Virus record (IMG/VR): IMGVR_UViG_3300026292_000602
Coordinates: 17,968 to 81,967 of that record
From: a virus
Length of the DNA stretch: 64,000 nt
Strand: one strand, 5' to 3'
The translations under genes and the position numbers were made by a program. Position 1 is the stretch's first letter. Each line of letters begins with the position of its first letter. The notes beneath the pieces were generated by a model that saw only the letters and a program-made list of their open reading frames with translations, was not told where the DNA came from and made no database searches. Shown piece by piece: positions 3,852-60,356 of the stretch.

Positions 3852-4380
3852 TAGCCTCGCTCCATTTTGCTTTAAAATTAATTACAAGACAACGTCTTTT
3901 GTGCTTGTAAGGATAAGTTGCATGATTAACATTTCCGTTCATAATAATAGTCTTTCCTGGACTAGGTGGAAACTCATGAAATTCAATTTGTGTATTAGGG
4001 TGTGCCAACATTGTAACAAGACATCCGTCTTGTGTAAACATATCTTCTTCTTCTTTATTATCAAAATACATAACTGTACTAATTAAATTTGTTTTGTTAG
4101 TGTGATTGTGTATGCCTTGATAACCATATGGGTTATATGTAATATACCAAGACTGGTCTGGTTCAATATGTTCTATTGGAATATTTAATGCTTGTATTTT
4201 CTTTAAGACCCACATAACATAATCAAGTGATATAGAATTTAAGTCTATACTGTTTTGTGTTCTGTCTGGATACTCTGTTGTTTCTGTGAAGGAGTTTAAC
4301 ATTACCTTGTGCATAGTGTCGTAATGTTCGTATTCAGTTTCTATTAAAAACTGTCCAGAAGCAAAGTAATTATTGTCCAT
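3826..4380 (-). CDS. 2OG-Fe(II) oxygenase family protein, 184 aa
   Basis: IHNHTNKTNLISTVMYF supplies the H-x-H/N part of the iron site and the double-stranded beta-helix entry. GKTIIMNGNVNHATYPY supplies the distal His, followed by KRRCLVINF with the 2-oxoglutarate-binding Arg. This is the layout of the phage/cyanophage group 2OG-FeII_Oxy_5. The substrate is unknown. It is the first of three clustered oxygenases (with 4370 and 5543) interrupted by a NifU-like gene. Confidence 0.78.
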   Translation of the reverse strand: MDNNYFASGQFLIETEYEHYDTMHKVMLNSFTETTEYPDRTQNSIDLNSISLDYVMWVLKKIQALNIPIEHIEPDQSWYITYNPYGYQGIHNHTNKTNLISTVMYFDNKEEEDMFTQDGCLVTMLAHPNTQIEFHEFPPSPGKTIIMNGNVNHATYPYKHKRRCLVINFKAKWSEANESNQKEV

Positions 4381-5224
4381 CTTTCATCCAGTCGTGCCTG
4401 TCAGGGTCTAGTGTATGTACCATACCAGGAAGTGTTTCATCTGGTGCAAAGTATTCAAAGTCAAAGTCAACAACAAATGTTCTACGTGGTTTCTTTGCAG
4501 GATAAACACCATGCCATACCCTGCCGTCCATAATAACTGTTCTACCCGGATAAGGTCCAAACTGTGTCATTACCTGTGTTCCATCTGGGTTAGGCATTAA
4601 TGTATATAACATACCATTGTCTGCTGATTGTTCGTTAGTACCTGTTGTAGGTTGTGCGTCCATGGCCATTACCATACTAATACATAGTGGACCATGATTG
4701 TGTATTGCTTGATAACCTCCGTCATCATAATCAACACACCAACACTTACTAACTTTAATATTTTTTACTGGAATTCTATTTTTTCTAATTTGTTTCATTA
4801 CCCAGTCAAGTAACTTATCCCAATTAAGTTTATCAAACTTACTTTGATCTATTGGTGGAAAGTTTGATCCTTTGTTATCTTTATTAATATCAAATTCTGT
4901 TTCGTTTAATGTTTGTGAACTAGGAAAGCCTTTTTGTTCTGGCGTGTCTGGATTCATTTTATCTGAACGTACTACACTACCTCCCCACTCTGGTAAGTTT
5001 TTAGGAGTTACATCATATTGATATCCTCTAAATGTAGTTTTAATTCTAGCTTCGTCTTCTCCTCTAAATTCTTCGTTCTCAAATAATGTTAAGAACTCAT
5101 CATAAAAAGGACATTTCGTATCTATAATCCATTGATTCATTGCACTATGAAATTCCGTATTTGAATTAGGATTTCTATTTGCAAAATTCTCAGGTGCTAT
5201 GTGTTCAGTCTTTTCCGTCGCCAT
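4370..5224 (-). CDS. 2OG-Fe(II) oxygenase family protein, 284 aa
   Basis: AIHNHGPLCISMVMAMD and GRTVIMDGRVWHGVYPAKKPR give the His-x-His, distal His and Arg of a 2OG-Fe(II) dioxygenase of the same family as its two neighbours, with a longer N-terminal helical part. I start at ATG 5224 (MATEKTEH) because AAAGG lies seven bases before it; an in-frame ATG at 5239 is also possible. It overlaps the NifU-like gene upstream and the next oxygenase downstream. Confidence 0.78.
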   Translation of the reverse strand: MATEKTEHIAPENFANRNPNSNTEFHSAMNQWIIDTKCPFYDEFLTLFENEEFRGEDEARIKTTFRGYQYDVTPKNLPEWGGSVVRSDKMNPDTPEQKGFPSSQTLNETEFDINKDNKGSNFPPIDQSKFDKLNWDKLLDWVMKQIRKNRIPVKNIKVSKCWCVDYDDGGYQAIHNHGPLCISMVMAMDAQPTTGTNEQSADNGMLYTLMPNPDGTQVMTQFGPYPGRTVIMDGRVWHGVYPAKKPRRTFVVDFDFEYFAPDETLPGMVHTLDPDRHDWMKDGQ

Positions 5225-5546
5225 CTTCCCGCCTTTCATCTACCCAGGGGTGTTCCCAACTTGTATAATAAGGATCATTAAAGTTAGGATCGTCCATACC
5301 TTCAACTCCTTTTACTTCTGGGATATAATGTTTAAGCATATTCTCTACGCCAAGTTTTAATGTTACTGTACTACTAGCACAGCCTGAACAAGCACCACTT
5401 AACAACATAGTCGCTATTCCGGTTTCCTCATTAAAGTTTTGTAGTTCTATTACTCCTCCATGCCCTGCCACTGCTGGTTTAATTTTAGATTCTACTACTT
5501 GTTCTATCTCTTTTATTATTTCTTCTTTTGATCTATCTACTATCAT
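5205..5546 (-). CDS. NifU-like C-terminal domain (Fe-S scaffold / NfuA-type), 113 aa
   Basis: The protein is almost entirely a NifU_N-less Nfu domain: VAGHGGVIELQNFNE, then LLSGACSGCASSTVTLK with the cluster-binding C-x2-C at residues 53 and 56, then the Nfu-type tail ending YIPEVKGVEG. Nfu proteins carry and deliver [4Fe-4S] clusters. Its ATGA coupling to an oxygenase on each side suggests a joint iron-related role, but that is inference. The length is typical of stand-alone Nfu domains. Confidence 0.88.
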   Translation of the reverse strand: MIVDRSKEEIIKEIEQVVESKIKPAVAGHGGVIELQNFNEETGIATMLLSGACSGCASSTVTLKLGVENMLKHYIPEVKGVEGMDDPNFNDPYYTSWEHPWVDERREDGDGKD

Positions 5547-15564: not shown

Positions 15565-15642
15565 CTATATTTCAGCACAGGCATAAGAATTAATTTCTAA
15601 TCCAATACATACCTCTACGATTTGTGGAGTGTTCCATTGCAT
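15565..15642 (-). CDS. pqqA: PqqA, coenzyme PQQ precursor peptide, 25 aa
   Basis: The peptide opens MQWNTPQIVEV and continues IGLEINSYACAEI. It has the invariant E-x3-Y pair of PqqA (Glu16, Tyr20), which are cross-linked by PqqE to make pyrroloquinoline quinone, plus the early W and P of alphaproteobacterial PqqA. Length 25 is within the 22-29 range of the family. TTGGAGA lies nine bases before the ATG and a terminator follows, so it is a complete monocistronic gene. No pqqB-E genes are in the window; host enzymes would be needed to process it. Confidence 0.82.
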   Translation of the reverse strand: MQWNTPQIVEVCIGLEINSYACAEI

Positions 15643-15784: not shown

Positions 15785-16378
15785 ATAGTTTTTGCACATT
15801 TATCAACTGTTGCGTTTCTAATTCTTGGCTTTGCATTTGTACGTATGATGACAAGCATAACAAGTTTAATAGCAATCAATAACAGCACTAATAATGAGAA
15901 GGTCACTTTTTACTGGCCACATACATTGTTTTGCTTTATAACAATATTCACGATGATACTATTCTGGTGGACAGCAACACCACTTCAAGATGTAAACTTC
16001 TATCCTGATAGCAACTGGAATCTATTCACATACATATTATTTCTTGCAGTTCCAATGCTTATGTTTCTTATAGCAGAAGTAAGTATACCATATAACCACG
16101 ATAATAAAAGTGTTAACTTACAAGACCATTACTATCAATATCACAAAGTAATACTAGGACTTGCTTGGGTATTACAAATATTCTTAATAGCTAACTTCTT
16201 TGTATTTTATAACGAAGGTGATATAATAAGTGCTAAAGTAATAGGTCGTGTTGCTATGTTAATAATAATGTTACCTATGGTGCTATCTCCTAATAAACAG
16301 GTACACAGAATAGGAATGAGTATATTCTTTCTAGGATTTATATATACTATACTAAAGTATCACGTCTTTATAGCATAA
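15785..16378 (+). CDS. Polytopic membrane protein, 197 aa, with probable ATA start
   Basis: Five or six membrane segments rich in Phe, Ile and Trp, for example FYWPHTLFCFITIFTMILFW and VILGLAWVLQIFLIANFFVF, with a few His (YNHDNK, YYQYHKV). The first ATG is 15845, but it cuts off a complete first helix (FAHLSTVAFLILGFAFV) and has no ribosome-binding site. AGGAG at 15773-15777 sits seven bases before in-frame ATA 15785. It faces alkB in convergent orientation. No family recognised. Confidence 0.68.
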   Translation: MVFAHLSTVAFLILGFAFVRMMTSITSLIAINNSTNNEKVTFYWPHTLFCFITIFTMILFWWTATPLQDVNFYPDSNWNLFTYILFLAVPMLMFLIAEVSIPYNHDNKSVNLQDHYYQYHKVILGLAWVLQIFLIANFFVFYNEGDIISAKVIGRVAMLIIMLPMVLSPNKQVHRIGMSIFFLGFIYTILKYHVFIA

Positions 16379-16403
16379 GAAAGGGTGCCGATAAACGACA
16401 CCC
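16376..16403 (-). terminator. Terminator after alkB
   Basis: Minus strand GGGTGTCG pairs with CGGCACCC (one mismatch) across a five-base loop, followed by TTTCTTAT. The T-run is imperfect. Confidence 0.6.
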
Positions 16404-16418
16404 CGAGATGTTTAACAA

Positions 16419-17483
16419 TTAGAATTGTTTAGCTATTTCTCTCTCTGCTTCTGTGGCAAAGTTTTTATCCCAGTCGTCTAACTTGTCTTTCATAAACTTA
16501 TCAAACAACGGAGGTATTAGTGCAAGTGCAAACAAGGTGAAGTATCCTACTCCTGTGTTTGGTGCACCTACTTCATCTAGTTCCCAGAAGTGAGTTTCTC
16601 CTCTGTCATGATGATCAGCTTGACGACCAATCTCTATAAAGAACCATGAAGTAAACAATGTTGAGTTATCCCAACTGTGTCTATAGTCTATCGGTTGATT
16701 TTTAACACGAATTAAACCATAGTGTTCTAAATAGTTAAGTGCTTCTAACTCAAAGTTTGATATAACCCAAACAAGAGCCACACACGCAACACCTAACCAT
16801 CCGCCTGCATAAAAGAATAATGCAAGTGTTGGTATACTCATAAAGTAACCTCTAATCCATCTGTTACTTAACGTCAGGAAAGGTTTACCTAAACGTTTCA
16901 ATCTAGCTCTTTCCATATCAAACAAGAACTTTGATTGTCCTAGATGTGATTTGACATAGTGTGAATAGATATCGCGTCCACGAGGTGCAGTTGCAGGATC
17001 ATCTTCAGAAGCTAGTTCTAAATGATGATTGTAAACATGAGCATAACAGAAATGTGCTGAACCACTTAACGCCATCATCCAACGACTTATAATAAAGCTA
17101 AAGCCTTTGGTGTGTGATAGTTCATGCCCATAGATTATACCTATGCCTGCAAATATACCTGTTGATAATACAGCACCTAAAAGCTCTGCTCCGTGCATAC
17201 CATTATATATTTGATAAGCTAGAGCAAGTTGAAGTGCTACAAAGACTGGTAACATCAAATACATTACTGCATTTTGTAACCAGGGGATCCCTAAGGTATC
17301 ACCGTTCTCATCAAAACCTACACCACGTGTTTGGTGTGTGATAAGAGTGTCAAGTATAATGCCTGCTCCCAACAAGCCTACACCTGTCCATACCCAAACG
17401 CCTCCTGCTAACACTCCTGCGAGTGTTACTAATATCAACGTTGGTGCTATGAAGTACCTTATGTTTAATAGAAGTTTTCTCAT
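16419..17483 (-). CDS. alkB: AlkB-type membrane alkane monooxygenase, 354 aa
   Basis: The histidine boxes of the AlkB branch of membrane di-iron enzymes are all present: GHELSHTKG (H120, H124), HVYNHHLE (149-154) followed by ASEDDPATAPRG, NYLEHYGL (252-259) and GRQADHHDRGE (288-298). Several hydrophobic segments surround them. AlkB hydroxylates terminal carbons of alkanes with electrons from rubredoxin; no rubredoxin gene is in the window. I start at ATG 17483 after GGGAGAACAC. TTGACA (17550) with a TAACAT box lies upstream. The chain is slightly shorter than typical AlkB (about 400 aa) but retains all ligands. Confidence 0.88.
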   Translation of the reverse strand: MRKLLLNIRYFIAPTLILVTLAGVLAGGVWVWTGVGLLGAGIILDTLITHQTRGVGFDENGDTLGIPWLQNAVMYLMLPVFVALQLALAYQIYNGMHGAELLGAVLSTGIFAGIGIIYGHELSHTKGFSFIISRWMMALSGSAHFCYAHVYNHHLELASEDDPATAPRGRDIYSHYVKSHLGQSKFLFDMERARLKRLGKPFLTLSNRWIRGYFMSIPTLALFFYAGGWLGVACVALVWVISNFELEALNYLEHYGLIRVKNQPIDYRHSWDNSTLFTSWFFIEIGRQADHHDRGETHFWELDEVGAPNTGVGYFTLFALALIPPLFDKFMKDKLDDWDKNFATEAEREIAKQF

Positions 17484-17527
17484 TGTGTTCTCCCGGCTCT
17501 TAACCTGTAGTTTCACAATGTATTACT

Positions 17528-17555
17528 ATGTTAGCACAATAACAAATAATGTCAA
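17528..17555 (-). promoter_or_regulatory. Sigma70-type promoter of alkB
   Basis: Minus strand TTGACA (17550-17555), 16 bases, TAACAT (17528-17533), 45 bases before the alkB start. Confidence 0.6.
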
Positions 17556-17610: not shown

Positions 17611-17628
17611 AGCATATTATAATATGCT
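17611..17628. repeat. 18-bp perfect palindrome AGCATATTATAATATGCT
   Basis: A perfect inverted repeat between the end of the 82-aa gene and alkB. It contains TATTATAATA and could be a protein-binding site or a small hairpin. Confidence 0.6.
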
Positions 17629-17876
17629 TATGGCTTTAGCCACTTCTTAGATAGTTCGTACCAATACTGTCCACCTTCACGTAAAGCTTCGTTGTCTTTA
17701 CGTAACTTTTCCATTCGACGCATTATAACATCGTGCTGGAATTGTGATAAAGTTTTGTTAGTGGATTGTAGTTTTTCTAAACGTGATAGCACATCGTCAA
17801 TCGAGGGACAGGTTATATCAGGAACCTTAGGAGCCTTCCGCTTAATCTTTTGCCATACCTTTTTTTCGAGTGCCAT
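17628..17876 (-). CDS. Small coiled-coil protein, 82 aa
   Basis: Basic N-terminus (ALEKKVWQKIKRKAPKVPD), then heptad-like DVLSRLEKLQSTNKTLSQF and RRMEKLRKDNEALREG, ending WYELSKKWLKP. No known domain. It lies between the PiT-like transporter and alkB in the same direction. Confidence 0.6.
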   Translation of the reverse strand: MALEKKVWQKIKRKAPKVPDITCPSIDDVLSRLEKLQSTNKTLSQFQHDVIMRRMEKLRKDNEALREGGQYWYELSKKWLKP

Positions 17877-17918: not shown

Positions 17919-18881
17919 TTAATGAAGTCCGTTTGGAACTATTATATAATGTATTGCTAAAACTATTCCTACTGAAGCACCTAAGCCAATCATCATCTTA
18001 AAGAAGTCTTTTGCAATAAAAGGAAACACACCTTTGAACTTTGTTTTGTCTGTAAATGTAGCAATAGCAAGTTCACGTCCTGTTAACAATCCTACAAAGA
18101 CCCAAGTAGTTGACATAGGTATATCGTTAATCTCTTTAAAGAATAAAAGTATTACAAAGTAAAACAAGTCTATAAGACAAGCACTTCTAACATATCTTGT
18201 ATTGTGTTTCTCTATGACTATCTGTTGTATCTTACCGCCACGTTCTCTAAACATATAACCTAGCCCTAGTACAAATATTAATGATACCATTATCATCATA
18301 TCTATAGGAACTTGTCTAGGTAGGTAAACTGCTATGTTGGCCATGTCATGACTTAACCAAGTCCACCACAATACTCCTGTGGTAATCCATTGTCCTACTC
18401 GCCAATATGCTTTATGACTTTCTTTAACTGAAGCAGACTCGTCCATCACTTTAGTAATACCGTACCATATAGCATAAGCTGATACACCTGCTACTGCATA
18501 ACCCATCATGCTTTTCATAAGCATCTTCTCTAATACAAATGTACTAGCGAAAGCACTTAATACTAAAAATGATGTACTTACTGGAACGCCTAGTCTTGTT
18601 AATATTAATAGTAGTCCTGGAGCGGCCGCATGATACCATTGTACTTCCTGCCACGGTATCCTGTTCAGTCGTCCATATGAAATATCCCCTCCATTAGTAT
18701 ACCAACCATACCATAGAGCCCATAGCAGGACAGCACTTGCGGCTCCCCACATGATTTTCCAGTCATATCGTTCATTGTTGGATGCAATCCACGTACCTAG
18801 GGTTTGTACGGAATCGTTTGCGATGACGGAGTAGGCCGCGAATAAAAAGCCTATGGCCATCCATAGTGTTAATACTTCCAC
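17919..18881 (-). CDS. PiT-type inorganic phosphate transporter-like membrane protein, 320 aa
   Basis: About ten membrane segments. AAYSVIANDSVQTLGTWI at the N-terminus and PMSTTWVFVGLLTGRELAI near the C-terminus resemble the repeated PiT motifs (GANDxxN...GT and GAxxTTxxxxVG..). The second central signature is TRLGVPVSTSFLVLSAF. PiT proteins move phosphate with a cation. GTG start after AGGAG. It could lift a phosphate limit on phage DNA synthesis, analogous to pstS in cyanophages; that role is inference. Confidence 0.75.
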   Translation of the reverse strand: MEVLTLWMAIGFLFAAYSVIANDSVQTLGTWIASNNERYDWKIMWGAASAVLLWALWYGWYTNGGDISYGRLNRIPWQEVQWYHAAAPGLLLILTRLGVPVSTSFLVLSAFASTFVLEKMLMKSMMGYAVAGVSAYAIWYGITKVMDESASVKESHKAYWRVGQWITTGVLWWTWLSHDMANIAVYLPRQVPIDMMIMVSLIFVLGLGYMFRERGGKIQQIVIEKHNTRYVRSACLIDLFYFVILLFFKEINDIPMSTTWVFVGLLTGRELAIATFTDKTKFKGVFPFIAKDFFKMMIGLGASVGIVLAIHYIIVPNGLH

Positions 18882-57925: not shown

Positions 57926-59364
57926 TACTCGTCCTCGTCATTGCCTAAGTTTTGTAAAAATGATCTTAACTTTGTGCTATCTGTTTCTGCTTGTATAGGT
58001 TTAACTGCTGAACCTATTCCAGGTTCTTTAGGTGTGTCTGGTTCTTTATCTTGTGTTACATTACTAGATCTTTTTAGTCCTGCTATAACACTTGAACCTG
58101 TTGATTGACTATAACTGTTATCTTCATCTTCTGCTAAATCTGTAATACGCAAACAGTCTATATCAAACTCTAAATCTATCTTTGCACCAACACCAGAACT
58201 ACTTCTAGTTTTCATAAGTTGTATTTGATATCTACCACGTTCACGCATAGCTCTACTTGTAAAGATACCTATAACATTATCAGCAGTTTGTATTTTACTT
58301 AAACCACCTGCTATATGACTGTGATCAAATTCTATTTCTTCTACACTAGCTCTGTTTAACTGTGAAGCAGTTACAAATATACATTGTAGTTCCATTGCCA
58401 AGTTACGTAGTTCTTCTGATACAAACTTATCTTTAACAAACAAATCACTTGGACTTACTTTTTTACTTAATGGCATCATTAAGTCTAAATAATCTATTAA
58501 CAATACATCAATCTTTTTATTGTTTTTAACTTCATACTCTTTAACAAAACTTCTAATATCGTTTGCAGTCTTACCACTTGGCATATATTTTATCTGCATA
58601 CCACCTGCTTTTTTACCTACAAGTTTAACTTTCATTTCAACTGTATCTAAATCTCTAAATATTTCTCTACTTGGTATATCAGTCATCATACTATCTATAC
58701 GCATAGCTACCAAGTTCTCACTTAATTCAAATGTTAGATATACAACGTTCATTCCGTTCAATGCCCAGTTGCAACCTAAGTTTGCTAAAAATAAACTCTT
58801 ACCTGCACCACTACCACCTGCAAATATATTAAGTTCACCTTTGTTAAATCCACCAAACAGTTTCTTATCTAAACTTTCCCAACCTGTACTTACTTGTCCA
58901 TTGTTATCTTTCAAACCCATAAGTCTACCTTTTGGATCTGCAAAGTAATCTATACCTAAGTCTTTTTGTAAACCTATTTGTACTGCTTCTTTAATTTTAG
59001 TTTCAACTGGACCATACTCACCTTTTTCAAGTAAGTCTGCACTTTCTAATATTGCACGTTCTAATGCTTTATGTCTACTAAATGTTTCAAAGTCGCTTAA
59101 CAACCAATCATAATGTTGTTCATTAAGTCCTTGTGGTACTTCTAATTTAACTTGAGTACAAGCACTATTAACAATCTTTTGTGTAGGTAATGTATTGTGT
59201 TCTTCAACAAAGTTTTTAATAAACTCCGCCGATGGTGCTAGTTTACGATCAAAATTCTGCGGATCAAAGACAGCTTGGCAACGCACAAAAGTTTGTGCAT
59301 CACTTAACATTATTTCCAAATAAGTTTTTTGGATATCGAATCCGTAATCAGTATTTTGCTTCAT
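57925..59364 (-). CDS. Replicative DNA helicase, T4 gp41 / DnaB type, 479 aa
   Basis: GELNIFAGGSGAGKSLFLAN contains Walker A (183-190), VVYLTFELSENLVAMRIDSM is the H1a-type motif, IDVLLIDYLDLMMPL is Walker B, and IFVTASQLNRASVEE the sensor motif; RYQIQLMKTRSSSGVGAKID has the arginine finger. The N-terminal domain is a DnaB-like helical region. It unwinds the phage fork with the primase coded at 62163-63173. Neighbour order agrees with T4-like phages. Confidence 0.93.
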   Translation of the reverse strand: MKQNTDYGFDIQKTYLEIMLSDAQTFVRCQAVFDPQNFDRKLAPSAEFIKNFVEEHNTLPTQKIVNSACTQVKLEVPQGLNEQHYDWLLSDFETFSRHKALERAILESADLLEKGEYGPVETKIKEAVQIGLQKDLGIDYFADPKGRLMGLKDNNGQVSTGWESLDKKLFGGFNKGELNIFAGGSGAGKSLFLANLGCNWALNGMNVVYLTFELSENLVAMRIDSMMTDIPSREIFRDLDTVEMKVKLVGKKAGGMQIKYMPSGKTANDIRSFVKEYEVKNNKKIDVLLIDYLDLMMPLSKKVSPSDLFVKDKFVSEELRNLAMELQCIFVTASQLNRASVEEIEFDHSHIAGGLSKIQTADNVIGIFTSRAMRERGRYQIQLMKTRSSSGVGAKIDLEFDIDCLRITDLAEDEDNSYSQSTGSSVIAGLKRSSNVTQDKEPDTPKEPGIGSAVKPIQAETDSTKLRSFLQNLGNDEDE

Positions 59365-60356
59365 GATTTATTATACCATATTTTTTCATTAAAGTCAATA
59401 TGTTTTTCTTTCAAAGCCAAAACAGCCCCAACACAACTTCCAGGATCACCTGGGTTCTTAGGAACATATATGTTGTTCCAATTTCTTTTAATTTGATTTA
59501 CTGCTACACTATTTAAAGCACAACCTCCTGTTAGTATTAAGTTACGACTTGGTAAGTTATTCAAGCACCATTTACTATTTGATTTAAGTATTATTTCAAA
59601 TACAAATTGAGTAGCATTTGCTAATCTTTTCATATCACCTTCTGTACTTAATTCAGGCTTATACCAATTTGCGCCTTTATGTAAATTGTGTTTAAACTTA
59701 ACTCCAGGTTTAGTTCCATTTACAGGACCTTTAAGAAACGTTGCAACCATATCATTAATTAGATGTAAGTTTTCTGCTGACTCAATATCTCTACCACCTG
59801 GTTCAACTTGATACTCATCTCTGTTTGCTTTTAGTCCCATACGTTGCGTCATAGCACTATAAAATAATCCAACACTATGCGGATAACCTTGTGAGTATAT
59901 TTTCTTTAGCTTGTCGCCTTTACCTTGCCATATAGTAAACGTTTCGTATTCGCCAATTGAGTCTAAACACATTATAGTTGCATTACGAAATCCACTTGTA
60001 TAGTAACCATAGGCGGCGTGTGATTTATGATGCTTTACATACTTAATAGGTTGTTTGAATCCCCATTTAGCTAGATACTCTTTAATATTATTTTCTTTAA
60101 ACAACCAACCTTGTCCTGCTTGTAGTTGTCTTAAACTTTTCAAGAAAGGTTTTTCGTACCAAACAATTTCATCTGGGTAAGGGCAATTTGCTTCTATAAA
60201 TTTAAGCATTGGTTTGTTCAAATGTGCATCGTTCTCAATGCCACTAAAGTCCTTAGACATTCCTGCCCAATCACACGTTAGCTTACCGTATCTGTCTTCT
60301 TCAAATACTGCCACACTTGCATCATGACTGTTACCTACTATACCCCAAGTTATCAC
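59361..60356 (-). CDS. Carbamoyltransferase (N-terminal Kae1-like domain only), 331 aa
   Basis: ITWGIVGNSHDASVAVF, YVKHHKSHAAYGYYTSGFRN (metal-binding His pair) and LILTGGCALNSVAVNQIKRN, followed by VPKNPGDPGSCVGAVLALKE, are the NodU/CmcH/TobZ Kae1-like domain. The usual C-terminal YrdC-like domain that makes carbamoyl-adenylate is missing; the protein stops at about 330 of 550-600 residues. It may carbamoylate a sugar, nucleotide or DNA base using another carbamoyl-AMP source. Confidence 0.86.
   Translation of the reverse strand: MITWGIVGNSHDASVAVFEEDRYGKLTCDWAGMSKDFSGIENDAHLNKPMLKFIEANCPYPDEIVWYEKPFLKSLRQLQAGQGWLFKENNIKEYLAKWGFKQPIKYVKHHKSHAAYGYYTSGFRNATIMCLDSIGEYETFTIWQGKGDKLKKIYSQGYPHSVGLFYSAMTQRMGLKANRDEYQVEPGGRDIESAENLHLINDMVATFLKGPVNGTKPGVKFKHNLHKGANWYKPELSTEGDMKRLANATQFVFEIILKSNSKWCLNNLPSRNLILTGGCALNSVAVNQIKRNWNNIYVPKNPGDPGSCVGAVLALKEKHIDFNEKIWYNKS

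Follow-up and report, generated by a model that had tools for sequence, protein, structure and literature searches.

AlkB-type enzymes hydroxylate C-H bonds next to a di-iron centre. In the AlkB of Fontimonas thermophila (FtAlkB), the source of the ligand numbering used here, Fe1 is bound by His137, His141, His167, His172 and His314, and Fe2 by His171, His272, His311 and His315 together with Glu271 (PMC10113152); the ligand histidines of AlkB have been termed invariant and indispensable (PMC10110569).

Among the biogenic sulfur gases of the ocean, dimethyl sulfide (DMS) is the main one, and a 2026 review gives only DmoA for its conversion to methanethiol (PMC13360808). The first DMS enzyme of Methylophaga thiooxydans lacks a gene, as does the first DMS step in Methylophaga generally and probably in many uncultured sulfur oxidisers (PMC6548844, PMC9563715); Methylophaga genomes are without a dmoA homologue, and no DMS monooxygenase activity could be detected in M. 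thiooxydans, for which the authors proposed a methyltransferase instead (PMC6548844). When grown on DMS, M. thiooxydans induces the methanethiol oxidase gene mtoX and a 'fatty acid desaturase' gene, MDMS009_226, along with the flavin reductase gene MDMS009_61 and PQQ genes (PMC6548844). Among viruses, Lake Baikal phages of methylotrophs carry pqqA beside a methanol dehydrogenase gene (PMC7678222).

Here we consider a gene in a 64,000-nucleotide stretch of viral DNA (the window), which corresponds to bases 17968-81967 of an 82-kb virus record. An initial annotation had read this gene as an AlkB-type monooxygenase that could hydroxylate alkanes or lipid chains during infection. Our analysis suggests that it encodes the hydroxylase of a XylMA-like monooxygenase that most likely acts on a small methylated sulfur compound, with DMS as the leading candidate, a reading to which we assign a probability of about 0.58.

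Results

A predicted membrane di-iron oxygenase in a tailed phage

The window comes from a tailed phage, with genes for a DnaB helicase, a primase and an exonuclease as well as tRNAs. The oxygenase ORF is intact (Table 1), and its ATG at 17483 is favoured over an upstream GTG (17516) because a GGGAG lies 6 nt upstream of it. The sigma70-type promoter noted in the initial annotation is well placed, but promoter-like sites occur in the region at chance level (16 found against 15.2 expected); the terminator noted there was borne out, terminator-like sites numbering 6 against 1.8 expected.

The protein matches the Pfam profile FA_desaturase (PF00487, E 2.3e-27), which is broad and takes in AlkB-type enzymes, and received no family from PHROGs or NCBIfam. 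A sequence search of solved structures returned AlkB (8sbb and 8f6t, E 2e-29 and 2e-27, respectively), and a fold search with the AlphaFold model (pLDDT 84.7, pTM 0.86) gave AlkB structures as its only significant matches (8f6t, E 2e-12, TM 0.81) and no desaturase. Since only Fontimonas AlkB matches, both by sequence and by predicted fold, the earlier placement of this phage gene in the AlkB superfamily was right. The ORF is predicted to encode a membrane di-iron oxygenase of the AlkB/XylM superfamily that is not a canonical AlkB.

Table 1. Features in and around the oxygenase gene, in window coordinates.
Feature	Position	Strand	Basis or remark
pqqA, PQQ precursor peptide MQWNTPQIVEVCIGLEINSYACAEI	15565..15642	-	Pfam PqqA, E 3.4e-7; conserved in other phages
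177-aa membrane-protein ORF between oxygenase gene and pqqA	15845..16378	+	No family match
Intrinsic-terminator-like hairpin, 9 bp, 6 GC, T-tail	16382..16404	-	Directly after the oxygenase stop codon
AlkB/XylM-superfamily membrane di-iron oxygenase (predicted), QxDHH family, 354 aa	16419..17483	-	Profile, structure, tree
Shine-Dalgarno GGGAG	17490..17494	-	6 nt before ATG 17483; read from sequence
Sigma70-like promoter TTGACA-16-TAACAT with TG (10/12)	17528..17555	-	
82-aa small ORF upstream of oxygenase gene	17628..17876	-	In several related phages (cluster 49); no family match
320-aa membrane protein, weak PHO4 (PiT phosphate transporter) similarity	17919..18881	-	Pfam PHO4, E 0.0066, below cut-off

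Iron ligands and phylogeny define the QxDHH family

The ligand equivalents in the phage protein are H120, H124, H149, H153, H154, E253, H254, Q288, H291 and H292, so that eight of the nine iron-ligand histidines of FtAlkB and the equivalent of Glu271 are kept. The ninth, the Fe2 ligand His311, is replaced by Gln288 (RQADHH as against RHSDHH in AlkB), and the second box is also altered (AHVYNHH as against EHNxGHH); the statement that all AlkB histidine motifs are intact therefore has to be given up. Gln stands at the His311 position, giving the motif QxDHH, in 79/79 viral and 80/83 cellular homologues checked, the three exceptions being fused proteins from another subfamily, whereas the position is His in all AlkB references and in XylM. 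Within a few kb of the QxDHH gene, sulfur-oxidiser genomes (L085, L089, L094) have another AlkB-like protein, a fusion of 709-832 aa in which the ninth His is kept.

A phylogeny against AlkB, XylM and desaturases, suggested in the initial annotation as a check, groups the phage protein with none of these. QxDHH proteins form a clade of their own of 62 rows, split from the AlkB, XylM and FADS references with an SH-aLRT of 99, in a quickly built tree whose long reference branches make the exact place of the family among these distant references unreliable. The searchable literature holds no earlier description of the family, and a literature search for viral alkB found nothing relevant.

The bacterial carriers are sulfur-oxidising and methylotrophic Gammaproteobacteria, in records named Thiothrix-like, Porisulfidus, Thiodiazotropha, Cocleimonas and Methylophaga; SAR86 and two alphaproteobacterial genomes contain more distantly related members. 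The M. thiooxydans and phage proteins share 67% identity. Several bacteria hold two to four QxDHH paralogues (G008, G063 and G003; G161, G011 and G006), so that substrates may differ among them and the family need not be limited to a single one.

Relatives of the phage oxygenase are present on at least 228 IMG/VR contigs, beside PHROG-type phage genes such as those for head-tail connectors, terminase, tail tube, helicase and DNA polymerase. The viral rows are scattered in the tree, whose starred branches require at least five changes, and the viral genes occur in several phage backgrounds; more than one capture of the gene is thus probable. Pairs with unsaturated dS give a dN/dS of 0.08-0.15 for the viral oxygenases, indicating purifying selection. 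Lying among phage genes, intact, under purifying selection and with homologues in hosts, the gene has the features of an auxiliary metabolic gene.

INPHARED holds no isolated phage with a close relative of the oxygenase. Its only 'phage' matches, to Acinetobacter phage MD-2021a, were rejected as evidence of a phage AlkB because they lie on contigs with the chromosomal genes iscS, iscR, hupB and ppiD; two records under this label, CAKLQH020000011.1 and CAKLQF020000009.1 (L169), look like bacterial contigs filed as phage (iscS, iscR, hupB, alkB1). The replication genes of the window phage, at ~45-52% identity, are similar to those of large gammaproteobacterial myoviruses and of other jumbo phages and do not fix its host.

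pqqA and other phage neighbours

The pqqA neighbour named in the initial annotation is genuine (Table 1). In 10 of the 12 contigs with a PqqA of the window type, a gap of ~150 bp separates the oxygenase gene from a pqqA downstream on that strand, and pqqA is directly downstream in phage loci L005, L007, L009, L011, L013, L016 and L019-L022. The neighbouring membrane protein noted at the same time is indeed present in the window, as a convergent ORF between the two genes, but outside the window it was seen in near-identical contigs alone. Loci L030, L038 and L039 carry PqqA of another, canonical type, either MWTKPTFEEMRFGFEVTMYVMNK or a near-copy.

Given the Lake Baikal precedent and the rise of PQQ genes on DMS in M. 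thiooxydans, the phage pair of oxygenase and pqqA fits a methylotrophic, PQQ-making host, and the PQQ link would suit C1 or methanol dehydrogenases better than fatty alcohols. Of the hydrocarbon or alcohol-use module suggested earlier, a carbon-oxidation module with a PQQ precursor is plausible, but the hydrocarbon part is not supported. That the oxygenase generally works with PQQ in cells was considered and rejected, since a clear pqqE above the cut-off is present in only 3 of 20 carriers; within the Methylophagaceae, 47 of 57 genomes have pqqA regardless of the oxygenase, and their peptide differs from the window type.

The 320-aa PHO4-like protein had no match in PDB or phage records; 29 viral loci have its gene close to that of the oxygenase. 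Related phages (e.g. L003-L018) have, by inspection of the sequences, genes for a PRPP synthetase-like (cluster 16), a lipase-like (cluster 15) and a UDP-sugar dehydrogenase-like protein (cluster 129) near the oxygenase. Other auxiliary genes of the window, at 59361-60356 and 4370-5239 (both on the minus strand), belong to the Nol-like carbamoyltransferase and 2OG-Fe(II) oxygenase families.

The bacterial operon and its link to mtoX

In bacteria, the usual downstream neighbours encode a GST, a Fer2-FAD-NAD reductase, a ~70-aa protein with two TM segments and a FadL-like porin; among 63 loci with enough flank, these were found in 24 (GST), 15 (reductase), at least 20 (2-TM protein) and 11 (FadL). 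SAR86 and the alphaproteobacteria have a separate Fer2 ferredoxin in place of the reductase, and the Methylophaga operon also includes a truncated globin (trHb). As a guess, the GST may serve the glutathione chemistry of aldehydes or thiols, and the globin the handling of peroxide or NO. The reductase of the M. thiooxydans operon is 42% identical to XylA of pWW0 over 332 aa, and no rubredoxin was found beside QxDHH genes in cellular operons, which have the reductase or the Fer2 ferredoxin instead; the XylA-like reductase argues for an electron chain of the XylMA type, not the rubredoxin chain of AlkB. One bacterial group has a MerR regulator with a weak match to a B12-binding domain divergent from the oxygenase gene (L084:4759-5730, minus strand), an arrangement that suggests possible light- or cobalamin-linked control.

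Because of the published M. thiooxydans study, we tested the co-occurrence of the family with mtoX, scored as SBP56 (PF05694). SBP56 is present in 17 of 20 genomes with a QxDHH gene, the other three (two alphaproteobacterial genomes and SAR86) having divergent members. Among 274 Gammaproteobacteria drawn independently, SBP56/MtoX was present in 10/10 carriers against 26/264 others (P 4.6e-10), and within the Methylophagaceae mtoX occurs in 10/11 carriers against 2/46 non-carriers (P 1.6e-8), these Fisher P values overstating independence because the sampled genomes share ancestry. Canonical AlkB, our control in the class sample, had no such link (SBP56 in 3/14, P 0.27), and this control, together with the result within one family, argues against mere ancestry as the cause. 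In the class sample, the SBP56 of one carrier, G140, is of the classical, high-scoring kind and not the MtoX-like form, and the small-genome family of G161, whose genomes are probably incomplete, shows no correlation (12/19 carriers against 4/6 non-carriers).

Gene order agrees with co-occurrence. In eight small-genome marine gammaproteobacteria (G161, G343, G013, G359, G006, G346, G354 and G355), the oxygenase gene is followed ~5 kb further on by mtoX in the same orientation. In one such locus (L220), the genes run in one direction in the order oxygenase, GST, reductase, 2-TM protein, FadL, mtoX, SCO1/MauG and TlpA and adjoin formate dehydrogenase genes (SCO1/MauG, TlpA and formate dehydrogenase being named by inspection of the sequence), and the encoded MtoX shares 63% identity with its M. 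thiooxydans counterpart. A search of the viral contigs for close relatives found neither mtoX nor the reductase, and no electron-transfer partner of the oxygenase was recognised in the phage. The operons and the co-occurrence with mtoX, read from genome sequences, point to a probable role in methylated sulfur metabolism.

The M. thiooxydans gene and alternative substrates

In the published M. thiooxydans genome, mtoX (MDMS009_211) is at 256503-257906 of scaffold 1104571000268 (PMC6548844). Genome G340 of our set has two mtoX genes, one of them at C25:256608-257825, and because this position matches that of MDMS009_211, G340 is almost surely the strain of that study. Its QxDHH gene lies on the same contig at 247729-248847, ~8 kb from mtoX, and is one of only two PF00487 genes in the genome, the other being on C9; the locus tags in the mtoX cluster of scaffold 1104571000268 (97, 140, 211 and 274) bracket 226. 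From the contig and the range of tag numbers, the QxDHH gene of M. thiooxydans is likely, though not proven, to be the DMS-induced MDMS009_226.

Kroeber and Schaefer read MDMS009_226 as a lipid-modifying enzyme, with the flavin reductase MDMS009_61 as a possible donor (PMC6548844). An enzyme of this kind could desaturate or hydroxylate membrane fatty acids for repair or adaptation, as when methanethiol oxidation causes peroxide stress, and could serve phages in remodelling host membranes; its membership in Pfam FA_desaturase would agree with this, as would the FabA-like gene (cluster 31, by inspection of the sequence) and MerR-type regulator found near the oxygenase gene in one cell group. Front-end desaturases, too, show a Gln in the third histidine box. 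However, the fold search gives AlkB and no desaturase, the XylA-like reductase, the FadL uptake porin and the placement in tandem with mtoX fit catabolism better, and a general role in lipids would leave the co-occurrence with MtoX unexplained; we therefore regard lipid modification as improbable.

Alternatively, the same module might have a different substrate among the small methylated or volatile compounds found together with MtoX, for instance dimethyl disulfide, DMSO, methyl-thio compounds or methylated amines, given that co-occurrence and operons indicate methylated-sulfur or C1 metabolism and not one substrate, and that the paralogues in several genomes may differ in this respect. This reading is improbable, since methanethiol, the substrate of MtoX, is the direct product expected from DMS, and DMS was the growth substrate in the expression study (PMC6548844).

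A divergent AlkB/XylM hydroxylase of alkanes or alkyl-aromatics, feeding alcohols to PQQ-dependent dehydrogenases, would account for the AlkB fold and most of its ligands, for the adjacent pqqA in phages and for a reductase and porin that recall TOL, with its outer-membrane transport gene beside xylM/xylA, but hydrocarbons are a highly improbable class of substrate, and the alkanes proposed in the initial annotation unlikely ones, for a family that lies outside the AlkB and XylM clades, lacks an iron-ligand His throughout, has a XylA-like reductase and no adjoining rubredoxin, is carried by sulfur oxidisers and methylotrophs, and is tied to mtoX and DMS degradation by its co-occurrence, by the order of genes and, probably, by published expression data, canonical AlkB showing no such co-occurrence with mtoX.

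Discussion

If the phage gene encodes a DMS hydroxylase, as we favour, electrons from NADH would pass through a [2Fe-2S]/FAD reductase of the host to the di-iron centre, which would hydroxylate a methyl C-H of DMS; the product, CH3-S-CH2OH, an unstable thiohemiacetal, would break down to methanethiol and formaldehyde. A chemical precedent exists in the demethylation of methyl ethers by AlkB relatives with loss of formaldehyde, as in the oxidation of MTBE by AlkB/MdpA. The MtoX of the host would then convert methanethiol to formaldehyde, sulfide and peroxide, and the formaldehyde would go to formate and CO2 or into biomass, with MtoX and formate dehydrogenase, both encoded beside the bacterial gene, completing DMS breakdown. 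The phage would bring the hydroxylase alone, apparently the component to be supplied during infection, and leave the remaining steps to the host, as is usual for auxiliary metabolic genes; it would often add PqqA to support PQQ-dependent C1 oxidation by the host.

More tentatively, and at somewhat less than even odds, we propose that QxDHH proteins are membrane di-iron DMS monooxygenases with Gln as an iron ligand and catalyse the step that opens DMS catabolism in Methylophaga and uncultured marine sulfur-oxidising Gammaproteobacteria, for which an enzyme has long been sought, and that several unrelated marine phage lineages have captured the gene, often with pqqA, to steer the carbon, sulfur and electrons of DMS during infection. 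A defined and widespread family tied to mtoX makes the gap in DMS genes testable. If the proposal is true, repeated capture by phages would mean that viruses act directly on DMS turnover and on the sulfur cycle of the ocean. There is also a risk for annotation, in that QxDHH genes labelled 'alkane 1-monooxygenase' or 'fatty acid desaturase' may be miscounted as viral hydrocarbon degradation.

Compared with FtAlkB (PDB 8sbb/8f6t), the phage protein has the same fold (TM 0.81), the HYG motif, the Glu271 equivalent and eight of the nine histidines, but it is only ~25-30% identical, has Gln288 for His311 and falls in a separate clade, and the cellular QxDHH operons are without a rubredoxin partner. 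The XylM/XylA system of the TOL plasmid pWW0 is similar in its pairing of a membrane hydroxylase with a separate Fer2-FAD-NAD reductase and in the FadL-type outer-membrane porin of the operon. XylM itself is 32% identical over 81% of the protein and lies in another clade, with Gln at the Glu271 position and His where the QxDHH family has Gln, and QxDHH genes are accompanied by GST and mtoX instead of aromatic-pathway genes. The proposed reaction, in which DMS yields methanethiol and formaldehyde, would be that of DmoA, and MtoX would take the following step, but DmoA is a flavin-dependent enzyme and is not homologous to the QxDHH protein. The phage arrangement resembles that of the Lake Baikal viruses, where PqqA presumably aids PQQ-dependent C1 oxidation by the host (PMC7678222), with the difference that those viruses pair pqqA with a viral methanol dehydrogenase, whereas here it is paired with a QxDHH oxygenase.
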